A stretch of 64,000 bases of DNA from Porticoccaceae bacterium. GTDB taxonomy: Bacteria; Pseudomonadota; Gammaproteobacteria; Pseudomonadales; Porticoccaceae. Every line of letters starts with the position of its first letter. Position 1 is the first letter of the stretch. The notes under the pieces are model-generated. The model searched no databases. It was given only the letters and a program-made list of their open reading frames with translations, and was not told the DNA's origin. Shown piece by piece: positions 20,521-40,635 of the stretch. Where the stretch lies: NCBI GenBank assembly GCA_021773435.1, contig JAJFKC010000038.1:1-64000 (forward strand), read 5' to 3'. Position numbers and translations under genes: made by a program.

Positions 20521-21833
20521 AAGTCGTTACTCCTTGAAAGTACGCCCCTAAATTGAGTACCCAGGGTCCCACCCACAACATGTTCCAACGCCGCCAAACG
20601 TCGGTGGTAATCCGCCCGTGCCTGCTCTCGCTGCAATCGGGTCTGCATTACGTTTTTTTCAGCACCAATCAAATCAAGAAAATTACCGCTGCCTGCCTCG
20701 TAGTCAGACTGGGCGGCTTGCAGGTTCTCCTCGGCAAGGGGCAGCAACCGGTTTTGGTAAAGTCTCAAGACGTGCTCACTTTCGCGCACCTTTTCCACTG
20801 CTAGCTGCACCTCACCCATAAGCTGCGATACTTTAGCTCGTTGCTGCGAATCGAGACGCAGGATCATGGCGCGCGCCTCATCCTTTGCAGCACGACGTTT
20901 TCCCTGGAGTGGGATATTGATTGACGCACCCACGGTGAAACGCTTCTCGCTCTGATTCCAGAGGGTGTTGTACCCTGCGTTGAGGGTAATGTCGGGGTAG
21001 TCGTTGTGCTTGGCCAATCTTTCTCTGTAACGACTGGCTTGAATTCGAGCAACCAGAGCTCGCAATTCTGGGTGATGTTCGAGTGCCAACTTTCGTAGCT
21101 GTTCCACTGCAGGCAGGGGAATGGTCTGCGGTAGCGCTGCAGGGCGGGGCAGTGGCTGGTCGGGAAGACGTTGCAACAACGTGTTGATGTTCGCCATAAC
21201 ATCACGGCGCTGACGTTCCAACACGATGTCGCGGTGTTCCAGCAGTACCTGCTCCACTTCGGCATGCAAGGCATCTTGCCTGGAGGCACGCCCCGTCGAA
21301 TATTTGATCTCGGCGATATTCTGAAACTCCTGTAACAACGACTTGTTGATGCCATTAATACGAATAGCGGCATGGACAAAATACCAGTCGGCGTAGGCTG
21401 TCTTGGCTGTCTCAGTAAGTTTCAACCGCGCCTGTTCGATACCCACAAAAGCGGCATTGGCCTCAGCGCGAGCGACATCACCACGCAATTCACGTTTACC
21501 CGGCCAGGGCAGGCGTTGTGACAGAGAGAATTTTTGACCAAAGTCCAGGCCATCAGCACCTGCTGATCGAGGTGCGGCACTGTATGAAAGCATGGGATCG
21601 TCAAATGAATTAGCCTGCTCGATACGTGCCTTCGCGGCCTGCCAGGTTGCTTGCATGGTAGGAATGTCGGGGTTACGTGCCAGCACAGCCGCTACCAGAG
21701 TTGTTGAAGTCAGTGACGCTTGGTTAGCGAACGAAATATCATCCTCGAGGGCCATCAGTGGCTGGCAAATAACCGCCAACCACAGCAAAGCAATTCCCAA
21801 ACGGGAACGCCTACAATCATTCTTGTTATACAT
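20517..21833 (-). CDS. TolC-family outer membrane factor (CusC-like)
   Basis: OEP-type repeats; 4-bp overlap with the adaptor gene. Confidence 0.9.
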   Translation of the reverse strand: MYNKNDCRRSRLGIALLWLAVICQPLMALEDDISFANQASLTSTTLVAAVLARNPDIPTMQATWQAAKARIEQANSFDDPMLSYSAAPRSAGADGLDFGQKFSLSQRLPWPGKRELRGDVARAEANAAFVGIEQARLKLTETAKTAYADWYFVHAAIRINGINKSLLQEFQNIAEIKYSTGRASRQDALHAEVEQVLLEHRDIVLERQRRDVMANINTLLQRLPDQPLPRPAALPQTIPLPAVEQLRKLALEHHPELRALVARIQASRYRERLAKHNDYPDITLNAGYNTLWNQSEKRFTVGASINIPLQGKRRAAKDEARAMILRLDSQQRAKVSQLMGEVQLAVEKVRESEHVLRLYQNRLLPLAEENLQAAQSDYEAGSGNFLDLIGAEKNVMQTRLQREQARADYHRRLAALEHVVGGTLGTQFRGVLSRSNDL

Positions 21834-30178: not shown

Positions 30179-30451
30179 TTGATCGCCATGGCTAAAACCG
30201 CCCCCATCAATATGCGTGTCGAACCCAGCCAGCATGCCCTGCTGACCAAAGCAGCTCAAGTACTACATAAGGATAGAAGCGTTTTTATTCTGGATGTTGC
30301 CTGCCGGGAAGCCCAAAATGTGCTGCTCGACCAGCGCTTTTTCCAACTGGGCGACGATGCATTTGCTGCCTTTGACACCGCGCTGGAAGTACCTCTGCCC
30401 AACAATGCCAAACTGAAATCACTGCTGGCCAAGCCCTCCCCATGGGAATAA
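30179..30451 (+). CDS. DUF1778-family (TacA-like) antitoxin
   Basis: PINMRVEPSQHALLTKAAQVLHKDRSVFILDVACREA; overlaps the downstream GNAT gene. Confidence 0.9.
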   Translation: MIAMAKTAPINMRVEPSQHALLTKAAQVLHKDRSVFILDVACREAQNVLLDQRFFQLGDDAFAAFDTALEVPLPNNAKLKSLLAKPSPWE

Positions 30452-30936
30452 CTGCCCCGCCGGTTGCCTTAACTGACAACCACGAGGTCTCGGAGTTTAA
30501 CTGCGGCAATGACACCCTTAATGACTGGCTCATAAAACGCAGTCTAAAAAACCAAAGAAGTGGTGCTAGTCGTACATTTGTTATCTGCCAGAATGACCAG
30601 GTGGTTGGATACTATGCGCTCGCTAGCGGCGCTGTGGAACGCATGATCTCACCTAAACCTATCGCCCGAAATATGCCGGAGCCGATCCCTGTGATGGTAC
30701 TAGGGCGGTTGGCTATAGACACTCGAATGCAAGGACAAAAATTAGGGGCAGCATTGTTGAAAGATGCCTTGCTGCGCACTCTTTTCGTATCAAAGAATGT
30801 CGGTATTCGCGCGATCCTGGTACATGCCATATCAGAAGATGCTAAACGGTTTTATCTCGGCTATGGGTTCCAGGTTTCTCCTATTGACCCTATGACCTTG
30901 ATGCTACCTACCCGACATATTGAAGGGCTTTTGTAA
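30442..30936 (+). CDS. GNAT-family (TacT-like) toxin
   Basis: FVICQNDQVVGYYALASGAV...RLAIDTRMQGQKLGAALLKDALLRT. Confidence 0.9.
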   Translation: MGITAPPVALTDNHEVSEFNCGNDTLNDWLIKRSLKNQRSGASRTFVICQNDQVVGYYALASGAVERMISPKPIARNMPEPIPVMVLGRLAIDTRMQGQKLGAALLKDALLRTLFVSKNVGIRAILVHAISEDAKRFYLGYGFQVSPIDPMTLMLPTRHIEGLL

Positions 30937-30997: not shown

Positions 30998-31040
30998 GCG
31001 GCAGGTTCGATTCCCGCCGCCCCACCAATAAACAACCCTC
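30998..31040 (+). repeat. ssrA 3'-end-like att repeat, copy 1
   Basis: GCGGCAGGTTCGATTCCCGCCGCCCCACCAATAAACAACCCTC: T-arm and CCA end. Confidence 0.75.
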
Positions 31041-31067
31041 GCCACGATAGTGGTGGGGGTTTTTTAT
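31036..31067 (+). terminator. Rho-independent terminator following ssrA tail copy 1
   Basis: CCCTCGCCAC-GATA-GTGGTGGGGG then TTTTTT. Confidence 0.75.
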
Positions 31068-31195: not shown

Positions 31196-31231
31196 CCGAT
31201 TCCCACCGCCTCCACCAATAAACAACCCTCC
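31196..31231 (+). repeat. ssrA 3'-end-like att repeat, copy 2
   Basis: CCGATTCCCACCGCCTCCACCAATAAACAACCCTC. Confidence 0.7.
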
Positions 31232-31325: not shown

Positions 31326-31412
31326 ATTCATATAAACGACAATATAATTTCAATTAGACGAAAGTAAACTTTCATTTGGACGAATGGTAATTTACACTTG
31401 GCCGAACGATCC
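31326..31412 (+). repeat. Array of four contiguous ~22-bp iterons
   Basis: attcatataaacgacaatataa / tttcaattagacgaaagtaaac / tttcatttggacgaatggtaat / ttacacttggccgaacgatcc, no spacers. Confidence 0.7.
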
Positions 31413-31437: not shown

Positions 31438-32709
31438 ATGGCTAACGCCCTGTACCAACGATTTACACAAGAGATATTACACGAGGCACTACAAGACACG
31501 CCCGTGGTGCTTATCCATGGTTCTCGCCAGTGCGGAAAAACGACACTTGCTCATTCGGTTGGCGGGAAACTGGGATACCACTACATCACCTTTGATGATG
31601 ACAATCAGCTACAAGCAGCCAAAGCCGATCCCATCGGTTTTGTACAAGGCCTGCCAGAACATACTATTCTTGACGAAATTCAGCGCACGCCAGAACTGTT
31701 CACCGCCATTAAAGCCAGCGTCGATCAAAACCGCAAACCTGGCCGTTTTATCCTCACCGGCTCTGCCAATGTGCTGTTACTTCCGAAGCTCGCCGACTCC
31801 CTGGCGGGACGTATGGAAATTATTCATTTACGGCCACTCGCCCAGGCAGAAATTACCGGGCTTAAGCCCACCTTCTTTCAACAATTATTCAGCGCTGATT
31901 TTAGCGCAGCAACAAGCAAACAGAAGTACCTACGATTAGGTGAATCACTAGCTAAGCTAATTTGCATGGGCGGTTACCCCGCAGCCATTGCTCGCAACAA
32001 TGAAAAACGTCGCAATGCCTGGTACCGAGATTACATCACCACCATTATCCAACGGGACGTACAGGATATAGCCAGTATTCGTAACCTGGATACGTTGCCG
32101 AAGCTACTCACCTTAGCAGCAAGCCAAACTGCACGGCTATTTAATGCGGCCGATTTAGCCTCTCCCTTTTCGATTAGCCGCCCAACGATTCGAGAATACT
32201 TAACCGTGTTGGAACAAATATTTTTAATCGAACAACTACAGCCTTGGCATAGCAATCGACTTAGCCGATTAATAAAAACCCCTAAAATGCACCTGACCGA
32301 TACTGGACTGGCCTGCTCGCTGATGGGTGTCAACAGCCAAACTCTTTGGCAAGATAAAACGCTATTAGGCCAATTATTGGAAACCTTTATCTACCAGGAG
32401 ATAAGAAAACATGCCGACTGGCACGATGAAGAATTAAAGTTCTACCACTTCCGCAATAAAGATAAGGTAGAAGTAGACATTATTATCGAACAGAGTCGAC
32501 AAATAGCGGGGATAGAAATTAAAGCCGCCGCGTCCGTGACACAAAGCGACTTTAAAGGCTTAAACAAACTAAAAGATGCCTGCAGTGAACAATTTGCCGC
32601 AGGCGTGGTGTTTTATGATGGCGAAACCATCTTACCCTTTGGTGAAAAACTATTTGCAGTGCCGATTAGCTTACTAAGCCCCAAAACACCAGAAGCTAAG
32701 GAGAAATAA
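31438..32709 (+). CDS. AAA+ ATPase with DUF4143 domain
   Basis: Walker A GSRQCGKTT, ILDEIQRTPELF, FILTGSAN; C-terminal DUF4143-type region. Confidence 0.92.
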   Translation: MANALYQRFTQEILHEALQDTPVVLIHGSRQCGKTTLAHSVGGKLGYHYITFDDDNQLQAAKADPIGFVQGLPEHTILDEIQRTPELFTAIKASVDQNRKPGRFILTGSANVLLLPKLADSLAGRMEIIHLRPLAQAEITGLKPTFFQQLFSADFSAATSKQKYLRLGESLAKLICMGGYPAAIARNNEKRRNAWYRDYITTIIQRDVQDIASIRNLDTLPKLLTLAASQTARLFNAADLASPFSISRPTIREYLTVLEQIFLIEQLQPWHSNRLSRLIKTPKMHLTDTGLACSLMGVNSQTLWQDKTLLGQLLETFIYQEIRKHADWHDEELKFYHFRNKDKVEVDIIIEQSRQIAGIEIKAAASVTQSDFKGLNKLKDACSEQFAAGVVFYDGETILPFGEKLFAVPISLLSPKTPEAKEK

Positions 32710-32724
32710 GCACCCCCGCGGAAC

Positions 32725-32775
32725 ACAGAACAACTGAAACTGCTGGAAAACAAGCTCTGGCGCGCTGCCGACAAT
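32725..32775 (+). pseudogene. N-terminal scrap of an HsdM-type methyltransferase
   Basis: TEQLKLLENKLWRAADN, no start codon. Confidence 0.5.
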
Positions 32776-32799
32776 AAATATTCCCTGACCGTACCAAAA

Positions 32800-33113
32800 A
32801 TCATTAACGAACACGACAACTACGCACTCGCCGCTTAATAACCGGTAGATTGCCATCTGACTGGAGCCGTGCTTATGCATCCAGCGCTTCATCTACTCAG
32901 GGGTCAAACCCAGGGTAGCGGCGAAGCACTCAGGTGTCATAGCTCATAAGATCGTGTTGAAGCTCGTCCGGGGCGGATGCCCTAAAACTTAACCGGAATC
33001 GCCATTTCATTCGCCCCGTTGGCCGGGTTTTGAAAGGTTAAATTAAAAGGCCTAACTAAGCATGTAGAGCCGATAGCAGCGGACTGACGGACGCGGGTTC
33101 GATTCCCGCCGCC
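32800..33113 (+). ncRNA. ssrA: 5'-truncated tmRNA (ssrA) copy
   Basis: Tag reading frame AAC GAA CAC GAC AAC TAC GCA CTC GCC GCT TAA TAA (NEHDNYALAA**), ...CTAAAACTTAACC..., CTAAGCATGTAGAGCCGATAGC, T-arm GACGCGGGTTCGATTCCCGC. Confidence 0.8.
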
Positions 33114-33196
33114 CCAATAAACAGCCATCACGCCACCCGGCTTTTATACTACCTCGCTATCTGTGGATGACTTTAAAAACGGAAACCGCTCCACCC

Positions 33197-33346
33197 ATGT
33201 TTGAACAAACCTTCAAAAACATCGACGACGTTCTTCACAAAGATACGGGCTGCTCCAGCGAGCTGGACTACACTGAACAAACTTCCTGGATGCTATTTCT
33301 CAAATACCTCGATGATTTAGAGCCACGCCCCAAAAAATCACTATAA
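33197..33346 (+). pseudogene. Type I restriction-modification HsdM N-terminal fragment
   Basis: MFEQTFKNIDDVLHKDTGCSSELDYTEQTSWMLFLKYLDDLEPRPKKSL*. Confidence 0.85.
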
Positions 33347-34100: not shown

Positions 34101-34856
34101 GTGGCCAAATTCGAGGATTACCGTGACCGCTATAAGACCATCAACATGGAGCGGCGGGATGGCATATTGCAAATAACCTTCCATTCCAAAGGTGAGTCTC
34201 TGCGTTGGGGGGCGCTGCCACACACCGAGTTCGGAGAATGCTTCGCCGACATTGGCAGTGACCGGGATAACAAGGTCATCATCATGACCGGTACCGGTGA
34301 TGACTTTAATGCGGATTTCCAACCGGCTACCGGTGGCACCAGGATCCGACCCAAATCGTGGGATCGTATCTATTTCGACGGCAAGAAGCTGCTGACGACT
34401 TTGATGGATATCGAAGTGCCAATGATCGCAGCAGTCAATGGCCCGGCCATCGTCCATGCGGAGCTGGCAGTGCTTTGTGACATTGTGCTCGCCGCAGAGC
34501 ATGCGGTGTTTTCCGACGCGCCTCATTTTGCTAACGGCCTGGTACCTGGCGATGGTGTCCATGTGATTTGGCCGCTGGTACTCGGCCCTAATCGCGGTCG
34601 CTATTTTTTACTCACCGGTCAGGAGCTTTCCGCCCAGCAAGCCCTGGACTGGGGGGTGGTCAACGAAGTACTGCCCCGTGAAAAGCTTTTAGAGCGAGCC
34701 TGGCAACTGGCCGAGCAGATCGCCGAAAAGCCTCCTCTAACACTGCGTTATGCTCGTGTTGCCATGACCCAAAAAATCAAACGGGCCTTGCTGGATGGTC
34801 TTGGCTACGGCCTCGCGCTGGAAGGTTTAGGCGCGGGAGAACACTGGCCGACATGA
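34101..34856 (+). CDS. Enoyl-CoA hydratase/isomerase family protein
   Basis: Crotonase fold; [35 protein letters not shown]. Confidence 0.92.
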
Positions 34857-34921
34857 GCTGAGATGAAACGGTGTTAGCTGATCAAAAACTAAAGTTTTTC
34901 AACAAATTACAAGGCAGAATA

Positions 34922-35683
34922 ATGGCAAAATTTGAGGATTACGCCGACAAATACCAATATGTGAAGATGGAACGCCACGACGGTATTTTGCAATTAACCT
35001 TCCACACCGACGGCGGGCCAATGATCTGGGGCGGCGGGCCCCATCAGGAAATGGGCAATGTTTTTGCCGATATCGGTAGCGATCACGAGAACCGGATCAT
35101 CATTGTCACCGGCACAGGTGAAAGCTTTATCGATGTGCTGGATACCGGCAAGCTGGACAAAATCCCGTCACGGATATTCAGCCGCATTTATTCCGAGGGC
35201 AAAACCCTGCTGATGAACTTGCTCAATATCGAAGTGCCGATGATTGCCGCCATTAACGGCCCGGCGACTGTTCATGCTGAGCTGGGTGTATTGTGCGATA
35301 TCGTGCTCGCTGCTGAGCATGCGACCTTTGCCGATGCACCGCATTTTACCGACGGCATTGTCCCCGGCGATGGCGTCCATCTGGTCTGGCCGCTGCTGCT
35401 TGGCCCCAACCGCGGGCGTTACTTTCTGCTTACCGGCCAGCATTTGTCGGCACAGGAAGCTCTCGACCTCGGTGTGGTCAACGAAGTGCTACCCAAAGAC
35501 GAGTTGCTGGAACGCGCCTGGGATCTGGCTCGGCTATTAGCCGCCAAGCCACCGCTGACCCTTAAATACACCCGTGTGTTACTGACTCAACAACTCAAGC
35601 GCATGATGCTAGATGATCTCGGCTACGGCCTGGCTCTCGAAGGTCTAGCTGCAAGCGATTATTGGCCAGGAAAGGATGAATAG
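34922..35683 (+). CDS. Enoyl-CoA hydratase/isomerase family protein, tandem paralog
   Basis: Closely similar to the upstream gene throughout. Confidence 0.92.
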   Translation: MAKFEDYADKYQYVKMERHDGILQLTFHTDGGPMIWGGGPHQEMGNVFADIGSDHENRIIIVTGTGESFIDVLDTGKLDKIPSRIFSRIYSEGKTLLMNLLNIEVPMIAAINGPATVHAELGVLCDIVLAAEHATFADAPHFTDGIVPGDGVHLVWPLLLGPNRGRYFLLTGQHLSAQEALDLGVVNEVLPKDELLERAWDLARLLAAKPPLTLKYTRVLLTQQLKRMMLDDLGYGLALEGLAASDYWPGKDE

Positions 35684-39417: not shown

Positions 39418-40635
39418 TTGTTACTCCCTATGTCCTTATCAAAGAGAGCGGTTCGCAGAGCAAAGGCCGGTAAGATGGTGAGGAAAATGTATGACAGTGA
39501 TGACCTGTATCTGAAAATCTCCCCAAGTGGACGTAAGCGATGGCGACTGAAATATGATTTTGACGGTATATCGGTAAGACTGCCTCTCGGTACATACCCG
39601 GATGTTTCCTTGAAAGACGCGCGAAATTCGCGCGAGGAAGCTCGTAAACTGCTCGCTGAGGGAATCGATCCGGCCAAAAAACGCGATGCGAAACTGCCGG
39701 AGAAAAAACCAGAAATAATTAAGCAGGCTGCAAACAGCTTTGAAATCGTCACAGAAGAATGGTTCGCCAAACATTCGATGAACTGGTCAGCAAGTTATGG
39801 TGACCAGATTATGCGGCGCATGGAGCGAGAAATCTTCCCGATGATAGGCGATAAGGCCATCGCAGATATTAGCTCTACACAGTTGTCGGAAGCGATCCAC
39901 CAAATTGAACAAAGGGGTGCATTGACAACCGCGCAGAGGGCATTAGCCGATTGCGGGAAAATATTTGTTTACGCTGTCGCCACCGGACAGGTAGAAAGCA
40001 ACCCGTGCAGTGACCTACGTAGCTTGCTATCCCCCGATAAGAAGAAAAAGTCAAATTCAGCCATATCCGAACCTAAGCGGGTCGCTGAAATGCTACGCGC
40101 ACTGGATAGTTATAACGGCGCGCTACCTGTACGTTGTGCGCTCCGTTTGGCGCCATTGGTATTTGTGCGCCCGAAAGAATTACGTGACGCGCAATGGGAG
40201 GATATCAATTTAGACACGGAGGAATGGCGCTACATTGTCACCAAAACTGACAGCCAGCATATTGTCCCCCTGGCCAGTCAGGCTGTTACTATTTTAAAAG
40301 AACTGAAACTCCAAACCGGAGATGGTCGCTATGTTTTTTCTAGCGCGAAAAACACCAATGGTGATAAACCCATGGGTGACAATGCCATAGGAGCCGCCAT
40401 GCGGCGCGTCGGGATAGGTAAGGATGATATGAGTGGCCACGGTTTTCGGGTGATGGCACGAACGCTCCTAAATGAGGAGCTCCGCTTTCGACCGGACTTC
40501 ATTAACCATCAGCTCGCACATCTTGTCCGTGATTCAAATGGTTACGCGTACAAAAGTGCTGACCACTTGCCCGAGCGGCGCAAGATGATGCAGGAATGGG
40601 CGGACTATCTAGACAAACTGAAAGCCACGACCTAG
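39418..40635 (+). CDS. Tyrosine-type integrase (DUF4102 N-terminal type)
   Basis: DDLYLKISPSGRKRWRLKYDFDG; catalytic pattern RLAPLVFVRPKEL ... GHGFRVMART ... HLVRDSNGYAY. Confidence 0.92.
   Translation: MLLPMSLSKRAVRRAKAGKMVRKMYDSDDLYLKISPSGRKRWRLKYDFDGISVRLPLGTYPDVSLKDARNSREEARKLLAEGIDPAKKRDAKLPEKKPEIIKQAANSFEIVTEEWFAKHSMNWSASYGDQIMRRMEREIFPMIGDKAIADISSTQLSEAIHQIEQRGALTTAQRALADCGKIFVYAVATGQVESNPCSDLRSLLSPDKKKKSNSAISEPKRVAEMLRALDSYNGALPVRCALRLAPLVFVRPKELRDAQWEDINLDTEEWRYIVTKTDSQHIVPLASQAVTILKELKLQTGDGRYVFSSAKNTNGDKPMGDNAIGAAMRRVGIGKDDMSGHGFRVMARTLLNEELRFRPDFINHQLAHLVRDSNGYAYKSADHLPERRKMMQEWADYLDKLKATT

Follow-up and report, generated by a model that had tools for sequence, protein, structure and literature searches.

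A 5′-truncated ssrA fragment in a Porticoccaceae genome is probably the displaced 3′ part of the host gene

Introduction

How does a genome come to carry the proteolysis tag and the 3′ part of a tmRNA gene (ssrA) with no 5′ half in front of them? The question is raised by a stretch of 64,000 nucleotides from a Porticoccaceae bacterium (positions 1–64000 of contig C32 of the source genome, G000), referred to here as the window. The initial annotation of this DNA took the piece for a decayed ssrA, truncated at its 5′ end by integrative-element activity, with an intact gene elsewhere in the genome, and suggested that its tag might instead act as a degron on an upstream protein. Here, we examine the fragment, its neighborhood and its counterparts in a survey of 112 Porticoccaceae genomes.

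Results

The ssrA gene is cut at the tag

The tmRNA covariance model (Rfam RF00023, cmscan) matched the window once, at 32742–33110 (60.3 bits, E 4e-21), with model positions 1–20 deleted and the acceptor stem empty, and ARAGORN called no tmRNA at the fragment. An intact ssrA lies elsewhere in the same genome, at G000:C19:108380–108791 (196.9 bits, tag ANDDNYALAA), and its gene order is smpB, ssrA, a P4-type integrase (frameshifted in this assembly) and arsenic genes. The expectation of an intact gene elsewhere and of an integrative element was therefore correct. By BLAST within the genome, the window aligns with this gene over 32813–33113 at 94.4% identity. Homology to the intact gene begins abruptly at 32813, with none to its left, showing that the break falls exactly at the tag. 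The first 105 nt of the intact gene have no match anywhere in the 64-kb window, in agreement with the reported absence of the 5′ half. The locus contains the following features:

30179–30936, + strand: TacA-like antitoxin and GNAT toxin pair, just left of att1 (PF08681, E 3e-20; GNAT, E 5e-8)
31001–31027, + strand: att1, ssrA 3′ end from the T arm to ACCA, also without the T discussed below (aligned ends, BLAST)
31034–31061, + strand: rho-independent terminator of the ssrA type, after att1 (similar sequence behind intact ssrA in relatives)
31199–31217, + strand: att2, ssrA 3′ end with the T kept and the T arm decayed (aligned ends)
31348–31406, + strand: three 15-bp direct repeats with 22-bp spacing (TTTCAATTAGACGAA type), upstream of the DUF4143 gene
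31438–32709, + strand: DUF4143/AAA_14 ATPase gene, PADLOC candidate defence gene PDC-S01 (Pfam, E 7e-50 and 1e-27; PADLOC, E 4.8e-169)
32725–32812, + strand: HsdM-like N-terminal scrap (TEQLKLLENKLWRAADN...), without a start codon, joined to the fragment (motif; ORF list)
32813–33113, + strand: att3, 5′-truncated ssrA fragment (94.4% identity to intact ssrA; RF00023, 60.3 bits; clustering with its own host in the tree)
33110–33116, + strand: damaged acceptor 3′ strand CGCC-CCA, with the CCA lost and the T three bases before the discriminator missing (aligned ends)
33200–33346, + strand: truncated N-terminus of a second, different HsdM (PF12161, E 5e-5; PADLOC type I methyltransferase, E 1e-10)
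39418–40635, + strand: P4-type tyrosine integrase, intact (Pfam)

The fragment retains tag codons, stop codons, the pseudoknot region and the T arm, whereas the tmRNA 5′ half (acceptor 5′ strand, D loop and resume signal) is absent. As judged from these parts, and from the loss of CCA, it is predicted to make no working tmRNA. In a consensus fold drawn from intact relatives, 63 of 66 pairs are kept in the fragment, indicating that it is recent and displaced rather than decayed, as the initial annotation had it. Fragment and intact copy differ, the 3′ loss apart, at 17 informative sites, and five relatives match the fragment at 12 of them and the intact gene at 5, which fits a resident 3′ part that was displaced while the present one was supplied by an island.

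The well-kept pairing of the 3′ part would also suit a functional split or regulatory tmRNA with its missing 5′ half encoded elsewhere. We consider this highly improbable, because a complete ssrA exists in the genome, no second 5′ half of a split or permuted gene was found in the window, the tmRNA model otherwise hits nothing in the genome but tRNA genes, the CCA and the G–U partner are lost, and no promoter-like site lies upstream on the + strand. Separately, ARAGORN reported a tRNA-Ala (CGC) at 21029–21105 of the window, on the + strand within an outer-membrane efflux gene that runs on the minus strand; this is probably a false call.

The tag codons are probably passive remains

The tag had been read as NEHDNYALAA followed by two stop codons. 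The codons are as quoted, and DNYALAA with its stops, a tag frame ending in ALAA, occupies 32815–32841, but the part derived from ssrA is ACGACAACTACGCACTCGCC... only; 'NE' and the first base of the H codon are foreign upstream sequence. The HsdM-like reading of the upstream peptide draws on its motif and on a Pseudomonadales MAG (L142, HH_bin3) in which hsdM follows the DUF4143 gene, although 32725–32812 gave no significant profile match in Pfam or PADLOC. It is also true that the tag shares a frame with the DUF4143 stop codon, but not beyond chance: the frame match is a 1-in-3 event, and 33 open codons are expected in 14% of shuffles.

The shared frame and the intact YALAA are what would speak for a C-terminal ClpXP-type degron, added to the upstream protein by readthrough or fusion. 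Against this, a TAA at 32707 separates the tag frame from DUF4143, the 42-codon tag frame holds no ATG, GTG or TTG start in the ORF list, an open frame of such length is not unusual, and a relative described below (G029) has neither the shared frame nor the unmutated tag, which reads YAPAA there. We therefore give the degron almost no credence: the tag codons are passive remains, and their frame continuity with upstream DNA is chance.

The 3′ end carries the deletion of P4-type islands

Where the intact gene has CGCCTCCACCA, the 3′ end of the fragment reads CGCC-CCA-ATAAA; the T arm is present, and the 3′ acceptor strand has lost the T and three bases of ACCA. The initial annotation, comparing this end with that at 31001–31027 (its 'copy 1'), had noted a loss of three bases including CCA. 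This is borne out, but the T is gone as well, a known signature and not a random loss. In aligned ends, the small deletion three bases upstream of the discriminator, typical of damaged P4-type attachment sites, is found in the G029 fragment and, within the window, in att1 and att3; of the three window ends, att2 alone retains the T. Islander describes damage at the same position in certain islands (Hudson et al., 2015; PMC4383910). Excision of CP4So in Shewanella (PMC5148205) deprives tmRNA of this U, as does that of CP4-57 in E. coli, where tmRNA is inactivated (PMC10107115). Because the missing T is the one deleted in these excisions, island excision here could, by analogy, yield a tmRNA without the G–U pair.

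Array of ssrA ends and its cargo

Three ssrA 3′ ends lie within 2.1 kb of the window, and no integrase gene lies between them. The P4-type integrase at 39418–40635 has relatives directly behind ssrA in five genomes (G114, G012, G022, G040 and G051); we considered it as the fragment element's own integrase and rejected this, since no ssrA end lies near that gene. The intact ssrA and the window stand on different contigs (C19 and C32), which keeps any array spanning both, and the order of its parts, from being viewed in full; the fragment includes the 3′ end of the gene, though damaged. The metal-efflux (CusA/CzcA type) and MerR-type genes at 1–28900 of the window would fit as cargo of the island that bears the arsenic genes behind the C19 ssrA. 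On the other side of the fragment, two tandem enoyl-CoA hydratase-like genes (34101–34856 and 34871–35683) are 74% identical over 300 nt.

Between att2 and the fragment lies the DUF4143 gene, with the HsdM-like scrap after it. The same gene stands directly behind an intact ssrA in a Cellvibrio UBA7671 MAG (L127) and in L142, where hsdM and a probable hsdS follow; the candidate defence gene and adjoining type I restriction-modification (R-M) genes are recurring cargo of ssrA islands. DUF4143 is not, however, a general partner of ssrA fragments: outside the window, a fragment adjoins it only in G029, L127 and L142 having intact ssrA upstream, and the remaining DUF4143 loci gave no tmRNA match. 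Of 23 DUF4143 loci from many genera, 22 have such a 15-bp repeat array ahead of the gene, compared with 31 of 1380 random windows, and hence the repeats at 31348–31406 are probably a conserved operator.

Fragments in relatives probably arose from resident genes

ssrA is an integration hot spot in Porticoccaceae, many of the 112 genomes having an integrase right behind it. Distal copies of the ssrA 3′ end, 18–122 nt long and usually 18–47 nt, lie behind ssrA in many relatives. A parallel to the window is seen in G029, also of the Porticoccaceae, in which the same DUF4143 gene (89% amino-acid identity) abuts an ssrA fragment whose start lies within 3 nt of the window breakpoint, and a rep helicase gene then follows. 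The segment left of the fragment, which is the hsdM scrap in the window, differs between the two genomes. Their rep proteins are only about 67–68% identical, compared with 89% for DUF4143, which indicates that the DUF4143 segment probably moved between G000 and G029.

The fragments themselves resemble their own hosts. Identity to the intact ssrA of the same genome is 92% in G000 and 88% in G029, and that between the two fragments is 77%. In a maximum-likelihood tree of 35 rows, six of them fragments, the six fall in six separate places, four of which are forced by well-supported branches, and every one groups with the ssrA of its own host or close kin. The grouping makes separate origins from the resident ssrA genes the most likely history of the six. 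The same tree led us to reject one ancestral fragment travelling with an element, although gene conversion could mimic this pattern. The genome G036 carries an ssrA piece without both ends (C4:216284–216378, L165), 0.9 kb behind the intact ssrA and before rep. In G086 (C2 and C15) and G121 (C13), contigs break inside ssrA with two slightly different copies, which suggests further long ssrA repeats in those genomes.

Discussion

We consider it likely that the fragment is the displaced, distal 3′ part of the host ssrA, at the edge of an ssrA-targeting island of the P4-integrase kind and within an array of at least three ends. Integration of such an island would rebuild ssrA proximally with island-borne sequence, giving the intact C19 gene, and would shift the former 3′ part of the host gene to the island's distal end. 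On this view, C19 and the window would once have formed a single array; the left edge at the tag would stem from a crossover placed further upstream than the customary T-arm site, or from deletion at a later time, and we read the whole locus as an array of ssrA islands that has undergone deletions. The sequences establish that the fragment is truncated, that an integrase gene stands behind the intact copy, that several ends lie in series and that the characteristic T is missing; the tree points to independent, host-derived origins. Four observations weigh against a displaced end, namely the 301-nt length of the fragment, the lack of an integrase between the ends, the placement of C19 and C32 on separate contigs and the difference of the left segment between G000 and G029.

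The length and the left boundary are where explanations diverge. Because the fragment measures 301 nt and the usual copies 18–47 nt, a standard T-arm crossover alone is insufficient to produce it. The agreement of the boundary in two genera favours a crossover at or near the tag, and the scattered boundaries of the other fragments favour a longer copy trimmed by deletion. If crossover took place in the tag region, the two host-specific fragments of different genera, their starts no more than 3 nt apart, would mark where it occurred; on balance, we find this unlikely.

A second, once complete ssrA, arising as a tandem or segmental duplicate, could instead have lost its 5′ quarter through a deletion bringing a type I R-M gene up against the tag region. 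This would require no integrase crossover inside ssrA and would account for the varied left edges of the relatives' fragments (G119, G036 and G102) and for the G036 piece; the hsdM scraps flanking the fragment show that deletions happened here, a genome of another family in the order (G043) has three full-length tmRNA-model matches, and duplication with gene conversion is compatible with the 12 of 17 site pattern. However, the family genomes searched showed no complete second copy, and the left edges in G000 and G029 lie within 3 nt of one another, a coincidence that separate deletions would seldom produce. We regard such a duplicate as quite unlikely, and retain the displaced host 3′ part as the preferred origin.

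The displaced tDNA and tmRNA fragments catalogued by Islander (Hudson et al., 2015; PMC4383910) provide the nearest precedent: they share with our locus an intact target accompanied in one genome by a 3′ fragment, an integrase directly behind the intact gene, several tandem ends and damage three bases upstream of the discriminator. The window fragment differs in running to about 300 nt from the tag, whereas Porticoccaceae ends are mostly 18–122 nt. In CP4-57 (PMC10107115) and CP4So (PMC5148205), a P4-type integrase likewise adjoins ssrA and the same T is affected; their excision was shown experimentally, while our locus is known from sequence and its C19 integrase is frameshifted in this assembly, and the cargo here consists of metal resistance, a defence candidate and R-M scraps. 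The ssrA islands of Dehalococcoides (PMC3146451) are also tandem and bordered by repeats of the ssrA 3′ end, some without an integration module of their own, but have 20-bp repeats and a serine recombinase. Set against these systems, the fragment is an ordinary kind of island scar, unusual only in its length and in starting exactly at the tag-coding sequence.

The locus also carries a warning for annotation, in that covariance-model matches above the gathering score may be gene scraps and not tmRNA genes. It extends to Porticoccaceae the T-deletion signature by which tmRNA is switched off on excision in E. coli and Shewanella, and it presents ssrA as a repeated landing site in this family for cargo such as a candidate defence ATPase and remains of type I R-M genes.
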